Positions 53,908 to 59,298 of a stretch of DNA of 64,000 bases are shown here, piece by piece. The translations under genes and the position numbers were made by a program. Position 1 is the stretch's first letter; each line of letters begins with the position of its first letter. This stretch comes from Arthrobacter yangruifuii. GTDB lineage: Bacteria; Actinomycetota; Actinomycetes; Actinomycetales; Micrococcaceae. The stretch is taken from assembly GCF_009192775.1 (NCBI RefSeq), contig NZ_VTFX01000006.1, positions 186,001-250,000 of the forward strand, read 5' to 3'. The notes below the pieces were generated by a model. The model was not told the origin of the DNA. It ran no database searches and was given only the letters and a program-made list of their open reading frames with translations.

Positions 53908-54300
53908 CTACGCCGCAACGGGCTCCAGGGGAGCACGGACCGGCCAGTCCTGGTTTTCCAGGATCACCTGGGCACAGCTGCCGGTGGAAGCGTTGACCAC
54001 AATCGGCGCCAGCAGGTTCACGGTGGTGCCGTCCAGGGTCGGATTCGCCACCACCAGTACGACGGCGTCCTCCGGGGCTTCCAGCCCCAGCTGGCGGCGC
54101 TGGAAGTCGGTGATTTCCGGGTGGTACTGCGGCAGGTAGACGGCCGCGTCCAGGACAAACAGCCGGTGGGCCGTACCCGCTGCGGTTGCCGCGGAGCTCA
54201 GCGCGTACAGACCGTTGGCACCGTCGATATCGTCCAGCAGGAAGTCCACGTCCGGAGCAAACCCGGGTGGCGGGGTCAGGAAGGTCAGGGCCGTGCTCAT
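53908..54300 (-). CDS. fliW: Flagellar assembly factor FliW
   Basis: A 130-residue FliW protein. In Bacillus, FliW binds flagellin and the regulator CsrA; when flagellin has been exported, free FliW removes CsrA from flagellin mRNA. Conserved parts are LTPPPGFAPDVDFLL, DAVVLVVANPTLDGTTVNLLAPIVVN, and the C-terminal CAQVILENQDWPVRAPL. Its ATG overlaps the flgL stop codon (ATGA), so it is made with the hook-filament proteins. No csrA gene follows, unlike the fliW-csrA pairs of many bacteria. Confidence 0.93.
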   Translation of the reverse strand: MSTALTFLTPPPGFAPDVDFLLDDIDGANGLYALSSAATAAGTAHRLFVLDAAVYLPQYHPEITDFQRRQLGLEAPEDAVVLVVANPTLDGTTVNLLAPIVVNASTGSCAQVILENQDWPVRAPLEPVAA

Positions 54301-57102: not shown

Positions 57103-57377
57103 GCCTGGCTCACCTCCATCGGTTGTGCACTGAATGTCTCTGAATGGGAATAAGACGTCTGATTTCAGGCCCCAACCTGCGGCAAAAGTCTTTGAATTGG
57201 CGGTCATATTCCAATATGTCCGCCACAAAACACTATCGGCCGGTTCGTCTCGAATGTTAGTGGTATGTTTCAGCTAAAGCGCTCAAGCGTGGATTAACCA
57301 GCGGACTCAGCCACTGACCACGAAGCCGGCGCGCAAATGGTCACATTGGGGACCGTTGCGGACTTGGGGGTCCAAAT
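57103..57377. promoter_or_regulatory. Divergent promoter region between flgN and fliA
   Basis: It holds the sigma-28-type promoter of the flgN operon (57233-57260) and a leader of about 125 bases for flgN. The rightward side must contain the fliA promoter, for which no sigma-28-type sequence was seen, so fliA itself is probably read by another sigma factor. Confidence 0.55.
57233..57260 (-). promoter_or_regulatory. Sigma-28 (FliA)-type promoter of the flgN operon
   Basis: Read on the minus strand: CTAAC, 15 bases, GCCGATAG. It matches the sigma-28 form TAAA-N15-GCCGATAA except for the last -35 base and final -10 base, and is the same form as the sites before flagellin and flgB. Confidence 0.75.
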
Positions 57378-58241
57378 ATGAATCGTGCTGCTCGTAATGC
57401 CATGGTGGTGGAAAATCTGCCGTTGGTTGGTTATCTTGTCTCCGAAATCTGTGCCAAGGCCACGCATCTTTCGCGTGATGACCTGGCCTCCGTCGGCTCC
57501 ATCGCCCTGATCACCTCGGCCGATGCCTTCGATCCGGATCTGGGCGTGCCCTTCGGGGCCTATGCCCGCCGCCGCATCATCGGAGCGTTTGCGGACGAAA
57601 TGCGGTCCAGCGACTGGGCCACCCGTTCCGCCCGCCGCCGGATCAAGGAAACCCTTGCGGTGAAGGAAACCCTGACGGCAGCCCTGGGCCGCACCCCGAA
57701 CGTGGATGAAATCGCCTCCGCTCTGGGTGTTGACCGGACGGTAGCCGAGGACGCACTGTCCGATGCCTCCCGCACCGTATCCAGCCTGGATGAATCCGTC
57801 ACGGATTTCCTGGTGGCGGACATGCCGTCGCCGGAGGGGTCCCTCCTGGCCTCGGAACGCGTGAAGTACCTGCAGGCCGCCGTTGCCGCCCTCCCGGAAA
57901 AGATGCGGTATGTCGTGGAGGAGATCTACTTCCATGACCGCTCGGTCAAGGAGCTTGCCGAAGAACTGGGCAGCACCCACTCCGCCGTGTCCCAGCAGCG
58001 CGCCGAGGCGGTGCGCCTGCTCCGCGACGGACTGGGCACGCATTACTCGGATACCAATGCCGCACCGGAGCTGCAGTCCCGAATCGCTCCGGCCCGCCGC
58101 AACGCGTACCTCACCTCGGTGGGGGACCGCACTGCCGGCGGCATCACCCGGCACCATCTGGCACCGGCCTACCTCGGAGCGCAAGGCCTGCCTTCGGGGC
58201 TGCCCGCCCGTGCTGCGGCGTTCAAGCCGGCCGCTTCCTAG
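57378..58241 (+). CDS. fliA: RNA polymerase sigma factor FliA/WhiG type (sigma-28)
   Basis: A 287-residue sigma-70-family protein. Region 2 is at about residues 10-75 (VENLPLVGYLVSEICAKATHLSRDDLASVGSIALITSADAFDPDLGVPFGAYARRRIIGAFADEMR), region 3 at about 80-140 (the arm ATRSARRRIKETLAVKETLTAALGR), and region 4 at about 160-215 (VEEIYFHDRSVKELAEELGSTHSAVSQQRAEAVRLLRDGL). This is the flagellar FliA layout. It is expected to read the three CTWAC-N15-GCCGATAR promoters in this window. An additional C-terminal tail of about 65 residues follows region 4, which is longer than usual. No anti-sigma factor FlgM gene was seen in the window. Confidence 0.9.
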   Translation: MNRAARNAMVVENLPLVGYLVSEICAKATHLSRDDLASVGSIALITSADAFDPDLGVPFGAYARRRIIGAFADEMRSSDWATRSARRRIKETLAVKETLTAALGRTPNVDEIASALGVDRTVAEDALSDASRTVSSLDESVTDFLVADMPSPEGSLLASERVKYLQAAVAALPEKMRYVVEEIYFHDRSVKELAEELGSTHSAVSQQRAEAVRLLRDGLGTHYSDTNAAPELQSRIAPARRNAYLTSVGDRTAGGITRHHLAPAYLGAQGLPSGLPARAAAFKPAAS

Positions 58242-58290: not shown

Positions 58291-58317
58291 TAACACCGAA
58301 TGATGCTCCGCCGATAA
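58291..58317 (+). promoter_or_regulatory. Sigma-28 (FliA)-type promoter of flagellin
   Basis: CTAAC, 15 bases, GCCGATAA, 61 bases before the flagellin ATG. Transcription should begin near 58324. Confidence 0.8.
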
Positions 58318-58327
58318 CTAGTGGTGT

Positions 58328-58345
58328 AGGCCCATGGATGGGCCT
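58328..58345 (+). promoter_or_regulatory. Leader hairpin of flagellin mRNA with GGA in the loop
   Basis: AGGCCC-ATGGAT-GGGCCT forms a perfect six-base-pair hairpin (extendable to eight) close to the expected 5' end of the mRNA. The loop holds GGA, the core of CsrA sites. A second GGAGGA is the ribosome site at 58365-58370. Confidence 0.6.
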
Positions 58346-58377
58346 GCGAACACAGCCCACTCACGGAGGAATACATC

Positions 58378-59298
58378 ATGGGTTTCACAATCAACACCAA
58401 CACCGCGGCAACGAACGCCTACCGCAACCTGAACATGAACCAGAATGCACAGGCCAAGTCCCTGGAGAAGCTTTCCAGCGGCCTGCGCATCAACCGTGCT
58501 GCCGATGACGCAGCCGGCCTGGCCATCTCGGAAGGCCTGAAGAACCAGGTCAGCGGCATGACCCAGGCAGCCCGCAACGCCCAGGACGGCATCAGCGTCA
58601 TCCAGACCGCTGAAGGCGCCCTGACCGAGGTCCACTCCATCCTGAACCGCATGCGCGACCTCGCGGTCCAGGGCGGCAACGACTCGAACAATGAAGAGTC
58701 GCGGACTGCGATTCAAACGGAAGCGAATGAGCTCGGCAAGGAACTCAACCGCATCGTTTCGGGCACCAACTTCAACGGCATCAACCTGCTCAACGGCAGC
58801 GCCGGCACGGCAGCAGTGGCCGACTCGGAAGGTGGGGGCGGCACGATCAACATCCAGGTGGGTGCGGGCGGGAGCGCCGCTGACACCATCGCGGTGAACC
58901 TCGGCAACGTCACCACCAGCTTGACGGCCAAGACCACCACCACAATTGATGGCGAAGAAATAAAGGACTCCTTCGGTGCCGCCACCGGCGCGACGGCCTT
59001 CAAGGTAGGGACCACTGCGGAGGCAGGGGTGACGATCGAGAGCCTCGATGCGGCCATCAAGGCCATCTCCGGCCAGCGCTCCGAACTTGGTGCGTCCCAG
59101 AACCGGCTCGAATCGGTGACCAAGTCGCTGAACGTTTCCGTCGAGAACCTCTCCGCCGCCAAGTCCCGCATCACCGATACGGACATGGCCCAGGAAATGG
59201 CAAGCTTCACCCGTTCGCAGATCCTGTCCCAGGCCGGCACCGCAATGCTGGCCCAGGCCAACCAGATGAACTCCGGCGTGATGCAGCTCCTGCAGTAG
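58378..59298 (+). CDS. hag: Flagellin
   Basis: A 306-residue flagellin, the filament subunit. The conserved N-terminal D0/D1 region (LSSGLRINRAADDAAGLAISEGLKNQVSGM) and C-terminal region (LGASQNRLESVTKSLNVSVENLSAAKSRITDTDMAQEMASFTRSQILSQAGTAMLAQANQMNSGVMQLLQ) are intact. The central variable part is short (about residues 140-215), so the filament surface is minimal. It is preceded by a sigma-28-type promoter and a 55-base leader with a hairpin. GGAGGA lies seven bases before the ATG. A large nested hairpin separates it from fliD. Confidence 0.97.
   Translation: MGFTINTNTAATNAYRNLNMNQNAQAKSLEKLSSGLRINRAADDAAGLAISEGLKNQVSGMTQAARNAQDGISVIQTAEGALTEVHSILNRMRDLAVQGGNDSNNEESRTAIQTEANELGKELNRIVSGTNFNGINLLNGSAGTAAVADSEGGGGTINIQVGAGGSAADTIAVNLGNVTTSLTAKTTTTIDGEEIKDSFGAATGATAFKVGTTAEAGVTIESLDAAIKAISGQRSELGASQNRLESVTKSLNVSVENLSAAKSRITDTDMAQEMASFTRSQILSQAGTAMLAQANQMNSGVMQLLQ

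Follow-up and report, generated by a model that had tools for sequence, protein, structure and literature searches.

A flagellin leader of Arthrobacter yangruifuii with two CsrA-type sites, and a csrA gene set apart from fliW behind an apparently leaderless promoter

The window analyzed here is a 64-kb stretch of contig 6 (NZ_VTFX01000006.1) of Arthrobacter yangruifuii, which carries a flagellin gene with its leader, a sigma factor gene and a run of genes ending with fliW; csrA lies further along the same contig. The features referred to below are listed in window coordinates unless the contig is named.

53908-54300, minus strand: fliW, the putative antagonist, last gene of the flgN-flgK-flgL-fliW run (PF02623, E 1.4e-19; related to 5dmb_A)
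57234-57259, minus strand: sigma28-type promoter TAAC-N15-GCCGATA before flgN...fliW (strict pattern match)
57378-58241, plus strand: FliA/WhiG-type sigma factor gene, between both sigma28-type promoters (TIGR02479; sigma-70 regions 2 and 4)
58291-58317, plus strand: sigma28-type promoter of flagellin, TAAC-N15-GCCGATAA (sequence read; strict pattern match)
58326-58347, plus strand: upstream CsrA-type site, a hairpin with hexaloop AUGGAU (sequence, fold, covariation, conservation)
58362-58370, plus strand: second CsrA-type site CACGGAGGA, overlapping the Shine-Dalgarno (SD) sequence (sequence, leader alignment)
58378-59298, plus strand: flagellin gene, the putative target, ATG at 58378 (flagellin match)
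Contig 6, 266771-267787 (L034:2772-3788): reading frame of 338 residues, lying between flhA and csrA
Contig 6, 267862-267874: upstream of the own csrA (L001), TAGAGT-N6-ATG, a leaderless-promoter signature with no SD by the rule used
Contig 6, 267874-268152, strand opposite to fliW: csrA, 17.9 kb beyond the window end and about 23 kb from flagellin

The strict pattern TAA[AC]-N15-GCCGATA gave two matches in the 64-kb window, one before flagellin (58291) and one on the minus strand (57259) before flgN-flgK-flgL-fliW. The sigma factor encoded between them matched TIGR02479 with an E value of 4.2e-36 and 124.8 bits, under the model cut-off of 189.6. Judging from the sigma28-type promoter, the flagellin transcript would start near 58323-58325 with a leader of about 55 nt, which would place the upstream GGA site inside the transcript. 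The hairpin begins 8 nt past this promoter; its stem pairs A58328-C58333 with G58340-U58345 and is extended by U58327.G58346 and G58326-C58347, and the loop AUGGAU occupies 58334-58339, with its GGA at 58336-58338. A preliminary description of this DNA had noted a hairpin with GGA in its loop (58328-58345) near the expected 5' end and a second GGA pair in the ribosome site (58365-58370). Both were recovered from the sequence, the stem extending even to 58326-58347 and the second site reading as listed above.

As also described, fliW closes the flgN-flgK-flgL-fliW run, its ATG overlapping the flgL stop codon. A terminator had been placed directly after it: a strong palindrome is indeed found there, whereas the T-run rule of the terminator scan found none, and a terminator at this position is likely. 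The FliW protein scored 71.6 bits with Pfam (cut-off 25), fell under the cut-offs of all 8 NCBIfam FliW models and had 5dmb_A, a FliW chain, as best solved relative (E 1.3e-7). The statement that no csrA adjoins fliW holds, and this absence is common to 45 of the 48 genomes of the order. The search of the whole genome for a CsrA homologue that the preliminary description had proposed returned a single csrA, at G000:C6:267874 (profile search, E 8.8e-24; 85.6 bits, cut-off 27). Of the two explanations given there, csrA located elsewhere is thus the one borne out, on contig 6 outside the window, and control by another RNA-binding protein or by FliW alone is not needed.

The distance from fliW to csrA is 27,588 bp, on opposite strands, with neither adjacency nor coupling. 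The csrA gene sits after flhA and the 338-residue reading frame. The latter had no Pfam or NCBIfam match; a similar stretch was observed in 25 of 30 csrA loci, covering just 51-69 residues in three, and its start presumably resembles that of FlhF. The RNA-binding residues L4 and R44 are present in the CsrA of A. yangruifuii and, like N55, which we take to be the position contacting FliW, they are kept in all 30 csrA loci read (own included). Among solved structures, CsrA is best matched by the CsrA chain 5dmb_D, whose entry also contains FliW.

The distribution of csrA was compared with that of flagellin in 99 genomes (the own genome and 98 relatives). It was found above the cut-off in 47 of 49 genomes with a flagellin match and in 1 of 50 without, this exception being an incomplete assembly (G071); the two flagellin genomes devoid of csrA, G057 (82% complete, 350 contigs) and G090 (1,060 contigs), are both fragmented assemblies. 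Within the genus, the same 24 of 29 genomes have csrA and flagellin. FliW was present in 50/50 genomes of the order with flagellin that were searched and in 0/7 searched without it. In a sample of the phylum (n = 396) csrA was detected in 58 of 61 genomes with a flagellin match, and in 37 of 41 further genomes of the class, nearly all with a flagellin match, the best five candidates at most being scored per genome in the flagellin searches of both sets. Outside the order, FliW was found in 53 of 57 flagellin genomes of the phylum sample.

Several apparent cases of flagellin without csrA were discarded. G291, with fliW and flagellin but no csrA match, was considered as a natural knockout and set aside because its contig C51 (4,120 bases) leaves 536 bases beyond fliW, and csrA is 699 bp from fliW in its congener G384. 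The flagellin matches of G127 and G368 are weak, the genomes of G507 and G811 are incomplete (80 and 63%), and G714 and G819 (family f21) have distant flagellin-like genes only. Conversely, csrA passed the cut-off in 14 genomes of the phylum sample that gave no flagellin match, and FliW too was absent from 13 of them (f50, f58, f37 and others); CsrA may serve a purpose other than flagella in these genomes, or their flagellins may have been missed. A csrA-like stretch with an internal stop, below the cut-off, was observed at G050:C2:46405-46554 in a genome with no flagellin or FliW match, and is perhaps a relic of lost motility.

The hairpin was then looked for in flagellin leaders by a rule demanding an ANGGAN loop, a GC-bearing stem and a position 25-66 nt before the start codon; leader starts were picked by script, 16 loci of the order and 8 of other orders were assigned to their group from their names, and the leaders of G101 and G203 were left out. 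Of 68 distinct leaders of the order, 67 had an A-N-GGA-N hexaloop hairpin; so did all 24 leaders belonging to other orders of the class, and 28 of the 60 taken from other classes. Shuffled leaders (50 sets) gave means of 0.60, 0.24 and 0.54, with maxima of 3 each. By the same rule it is absent in 32 of the 60 leaders of other classes, and it is thus not universal. Among leaders of Bacillota and other groups inspected by eye, several have the hairpin, such as those of Sporosarcina, Paenibacillus and Clostridium; several others, such as those of Exiguobacterium and Alkalibacterium, do not. ANGGA within the last 22 nt was likewise found in 67 of 68 distinct leaders of the order. The sole exception at the level of the order is Mobiluncus, whose leader had neither the ANGGAN hairpin nor the ANGGA ribosome site by these rules, and which we take to belong to the window's order under the GTDB scheme (Actinomycetales in NCBI). 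In the leader of Mobiluncus porci (L182), a GGCAAC/GTTGCC stem closes a larger loop that contains GGA.

When the GGA hexaloop with the best stem was chosen irrespective of loop pattern, A[CT]GGAN was obtained in 54 of 55 leaders of the order, and the remaining one has A[CT]GGAN with an interrupted stem. In an alignment of 57 distinct hairpins, 88.7% of the pair cells can pair. Cells changed on both sides numbered 81, against a shuffled mean of 26.2 (0/500 shuffles as high), a count inflated by the relatedness of the sequences, and the covariation score was 0.492 against at most 0.127 for slid registers (0/500 shuffles as high). The bare number of pairs with a change on both sides, 5 of 7, was reached by 235 of 500 shuffles. 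Leaders entered this alignment by the pattern C/T-A-C/T-GGA-N-G, so the selection itself constrains the loop columns and the innermost pair. The stem varies with compensation around a fixed A-N-GGA loop, and at the second site CA-N-GGA is invariant in 46 of 46 aligned leaders. Compensatory changes with the loop GGA retained are what the preliminary description had proposed to look for in related motile species; relatives with fliW and flagellin that lack the hairpin or its GGA, which it had named as evidence to the contrary, were not encountered inside the class beyond the one leader of the order, FliW having been searched for this comparison in 57 genomes, those of the order only.

Folding energy supports the hairpin and does not settle it; conservation does. 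The isolated 22-nt hairpin has a predicted energy of -15.5 kcal/mol (z -4.14, 0/200 shuffles as good). The 57-nt leader, of which the hairpin is the predicted fold, is not unusually stable (z -1.19, 28/200 shuffles as good), and a fold other than the hairpin is preferred once the first codons or more upstream sequence are added. With the first codons, the predicted fold pairs the 5' arm of the hairpin with the start codon. In the own genus, the 5' arm is able to pair with the start-codon region in place of the 3' arm (window 58324-58400).

A covariance model spanning both sites (R1) was built from 46 leaders of the order and scanned against 394 genomes of the class. It gave 61 matches (E 0.001 or better) spread over 45 genomes. 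Of these matches, 41 run up to a listed flagellin start, and 34 of the 41 come from 24 genomes whose leaders were outside the model. At E 1e-8 or better, 23 of 27 matches end at a listed flagellin start, the other four being in G511, G533 (near a contig edge), G644 and G780. Twenty of the 61 matches lie away from a listed start. Among the 60 flagellin rows kept, which were those beginning near residue 1, with later fragments and FlgL-like rows excluded, 19 starts went unmatched. The unmatched leaders that were read (G831, G786, G747, G814, G740, G778 and G716) still have a hairpin. In the own genome, the flagellin leader scored 71 bits and the next place 20.8, so that no further CsrA target came near it among the 150 of 2,909 first-look candidates scored; single-site targets escape R1, since it models both sites. 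Rfam returned three tRNAs only in the whole window and, for the leader at E values up to 10, one match of 10.6 bits, far under its cut-off, and no described family.

The gene order of fliW and csrA separates the order from other classes. In other classes the two genes are within 700 bp of each other in 49 of 53 genomes, 40 having no more than 130 bp between the matches and 47 having both on one strand, compared with 3 of 48 adjacent pairs in the order. There, 38 pairs are apart on one contig, at 27-52 kb and on opposite strands in 37 genomes and at 3 kb in one, and in 7 further genomes the two genes fall on separate contigs; in the three genomes where csrA adjoins fliW, an SD precedes csrA.

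Promoter signatures differ between the two parts of the system. A loose sigma28 pattern matched 42 of the 67 flagellin leaders from the order (25 gave no match) and 0 of 46 csrA upstreams; in 39 of the 42 leaders with the pattern, the beginning of the loop falls 17-18 nt past the -10 core. In Actinobacteria, leaderless transcripts carry TANNNT about 12 bp upstream of the start codon, according to the accessible part of PMC3160421. The 46 csrA genes from the order for which no neighbouring fliW was seen, including 7 on other contigs than fliW and G071 (no fliW match), gave 45 distinct upstreams. In 42 of them a spacer of exactly 6 nt separates TANNNT from the start codon, whereas any other spacing averages 0.086 in the same 45; SD-like runs of four or more occur in 6 of the 46. 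Overall, the exact spacing is found in 45 of 50 such genes, G077 being counted after its start was moved by one codon. The exceptions are G043, G408, G823 and G662, which have an SD, and G061, with 7 nt. Six further genomes of the order contributed to this: G644, G780 and G830 fit, G823 and G662 have an SD, these five being judged seemingly relocated from the 21-27 kb that separate csrA from flagellin, and in G757 a FliW-like motif stands just upstream of a csrA with an SD.

In family f24, which belongs to another order, csrA looks leaderless in 13 of 14 cases with a FliW-like motif mostly still just upstream, FliW beside csrA in f24 and in the further genomes of the order being judged by a short custom motif. 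Leaderless start and relocation thus overlap and yet are separable. The 17 remaining csrA upstreams from other orders have no leaderless signature and 16 have an SD; the same is true of 20 upstreams of other classes (17 with an SD), which were picked by hand from the 53 genomes of the adjacency comparison, all with an adjacent fliW. The own csrA is apparently behind its own leaderless promoter, and in the order the supply of csrA and that of FliW look uncoupled. A leaderless csrA message would not be coupled to fliW and would offer no SD for CsrA to occupy.

The hag leader of Bacillus subtilis has two CsrA sites, of which the one overlapping the SD blocks ribosomes (Yakhnin 2007 and Mukherjee 2011, as cited in a review, PMC7652899). 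The window and the csrA locus very probably make up a CsrA-FliW-flagellin circuit: the same partner switch is suggested by the ANGGAN loop, the site over the SD, L4 and R44 of CsrA, and 5dmb_D and 5dmb_A as nearest solved relatives. These parts are present and the leader is conserved; binding, blocking and relief would proceed as in B. subtilis. We therefore hold with high confidence that a B. subtilis-type CsrA/FliW switch operates on this leader, with csrA supplied separately from an apparently leaderless promoter. A CsrA dimer would bind the 5'-terminal hairpin loop AUGGAU and the SD element CACGGAG together and block ribosome entry on the flagellin mRNA. Unexported flagellin would hold FliW, leaving CsrA free to shut flagellin translation, and export would free FliW to remove CsrA. 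CsrA itself would be made independently of FliW, with no translational coupling, and is probably present before sigma28 turns flagellin on. The circuit in the order may accordingly be arranged with the repressor first, csrA having left the fliW operon for a housekeeping-type leaderless promoter, beyond autorepression at an SD and beyond coupling, and fliW and flagellin having stayed under sigma28; for this proposal the chances seem to us slightly short of even.

The hexaloop fits the preference of RsmE/CsrA for ANGGAN (Schubert 2007, as cited in PMC7652899), both as AUGGAU here and as A[CT]GGAN in relatives. One feature speaks against CsrA: the stem of 8-9 bp is longer than that of most SELEX ligands, which mostly have four or fewer contiguous pairs according to the accessible part of the same review. 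The hairpin might instead be a 5' stabilizer or a folding artefact of sigma28 leaders with no role for CsrA. Its near-constant distance from the promoter in the 42 leaders with the pattern and its stable stem would agree with this, but a stem compensated around a fixed A-N-GGA, a second site that keeps CA-N-GGA and a csrA that follows flagellin make it very improbable. Even less credit can be given to control of the leader by FliW alone or by another RNA-binding protein. FliW alone does shift the 5' UTR of B. subtilis hag, an interaction 500-fold weaker than its binding of CsrA (PMC6529632, accessible part); against such control, csrA is present and tracks flagellin, and the loop obeys the CsrA/RsmE rule.

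A switch between two folds, in which the 5' arm pairs with either the 3' arm or the start-codon region and CsrA binding or the kinetics of transcription select one, is what the predicted fold of the own leader with its first codons would suggest, and the own genus allows 6-9 consecutive pairs for it. Across the order, however, this run falls to 3 in 14 of 60 distinct leaders, and it is the stem of the local hairpin that covaries; the switch was rejected as a conserved element, the pairing not being kept across the order, and we regard it as improbable. CsrA could finally act through both sites with FliW no longer its main antagonist, relief coming from a small RNA or from dosage alone and FliW serving as a flagellin chaperone. 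The non-adjacency of fliW and csrA in 45 of 48 genomes of the order and the weak family membership of the own FliW (Pfam 71.6 bits, NCBIfam models below their cut-offs) would be in keeping with this. It is nevertheless unlikely, in view of FliW in all 50 flagellates of the order searched and of N55, presumably its contact on CsrA, kept in 30 of 30 loci.

The preferred reading, a B. subtilis-type switch with a separate csrA supply, amounts to a known circuit in a new genetic layout, and as such is well supported. In Campylobacter jejuni, which belongs to an unrelated lineage, CsrA reportedly acts on a flagellin mRNA and is antagonized by FliW (CsrA-FliW network on flagellin mRNA, PMC4894983). 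With the CsrA-FliW-Hag switch of B. subtilis, as far as it is described in the accessible parts of PMC7652899 and of Oshiro 2019 (PMC6529632), the locus shares the three proteins and two leader sites, one of them over the SD. It differs in that csrA is away from fliW and looks leaderless, whereas in B. subtilis the two genes are adjacent and translationally coupled. For Kineococcus radiotolerans, an actinobacterium in which csrA is also listed after flhA, a flagellin leader matching the B. subtilis BS2 site at 9/12 positions was described in 2008 and CsrA control suggested (PMC2587704); in its accessible part, that account mentions neither an upstream hairpin nor FliW, and has nothing on conservation, a leaderless csrA or lost adjacency. 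FliW control of CsrA was suggested for Actinobacteria among other phyla in 2015 (PMC4682653, accessible part), and a 2023 survey of actinobacterial flagella had CsrA and FliW among the proteins searched (PMC10746217, accessible part). Among the literature matches listed, none was found on conservation of the hairpin, loss of adjacency or a leaderless csrA.

The CsrA flagellin switch would thereby be extended, with covariation evidence, to the flagellated Actinomycetes sampled, for which brief suggestions only were found in print. Work on B. subtilis ties the FliW:CsrA stoichiometry partly to gene order and translational coupling, and the order offers a natural experiment, most of it having lost the fliW-csrA adjacency yet kept the leader sites. 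What the FliW:CsrA ratio needs could be learned by comparing relatives whose csrA is leaderless, SD-led, adjacent or relocated. If the repressor does come first, flagellin homeostasis would work without the coupled FliW:CsrA supply held important in B. subtilis. An RNA family marking CsrA-controlled flagellins could also be built on the leader hairpin.

Some leaders depart from the common layout. In G061 (L069), two tandem ANGGAN hairpins, with GGA at -87 and -54, precede one flagellin, possibly giving three CsrA sites. G174 and G291 (f37; L147, L156) have a second flagellin-type gene before fliW that lacks the hairpin; the main flagellin of G174 has it, and in G291 the ribosome site of the second gene also lacks GGA. 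Leaders of f38 carry pentaloops of the form GGC-AGGA[AG]-GCC, or GGC-AUGAG-GCC with no GGA. In f32, A[CT]GGAGG is kept at the SD, and none of the five leaders inspected has an ANGGAN hairpin. In both families the upstream site has apparently been lost or has drifted.
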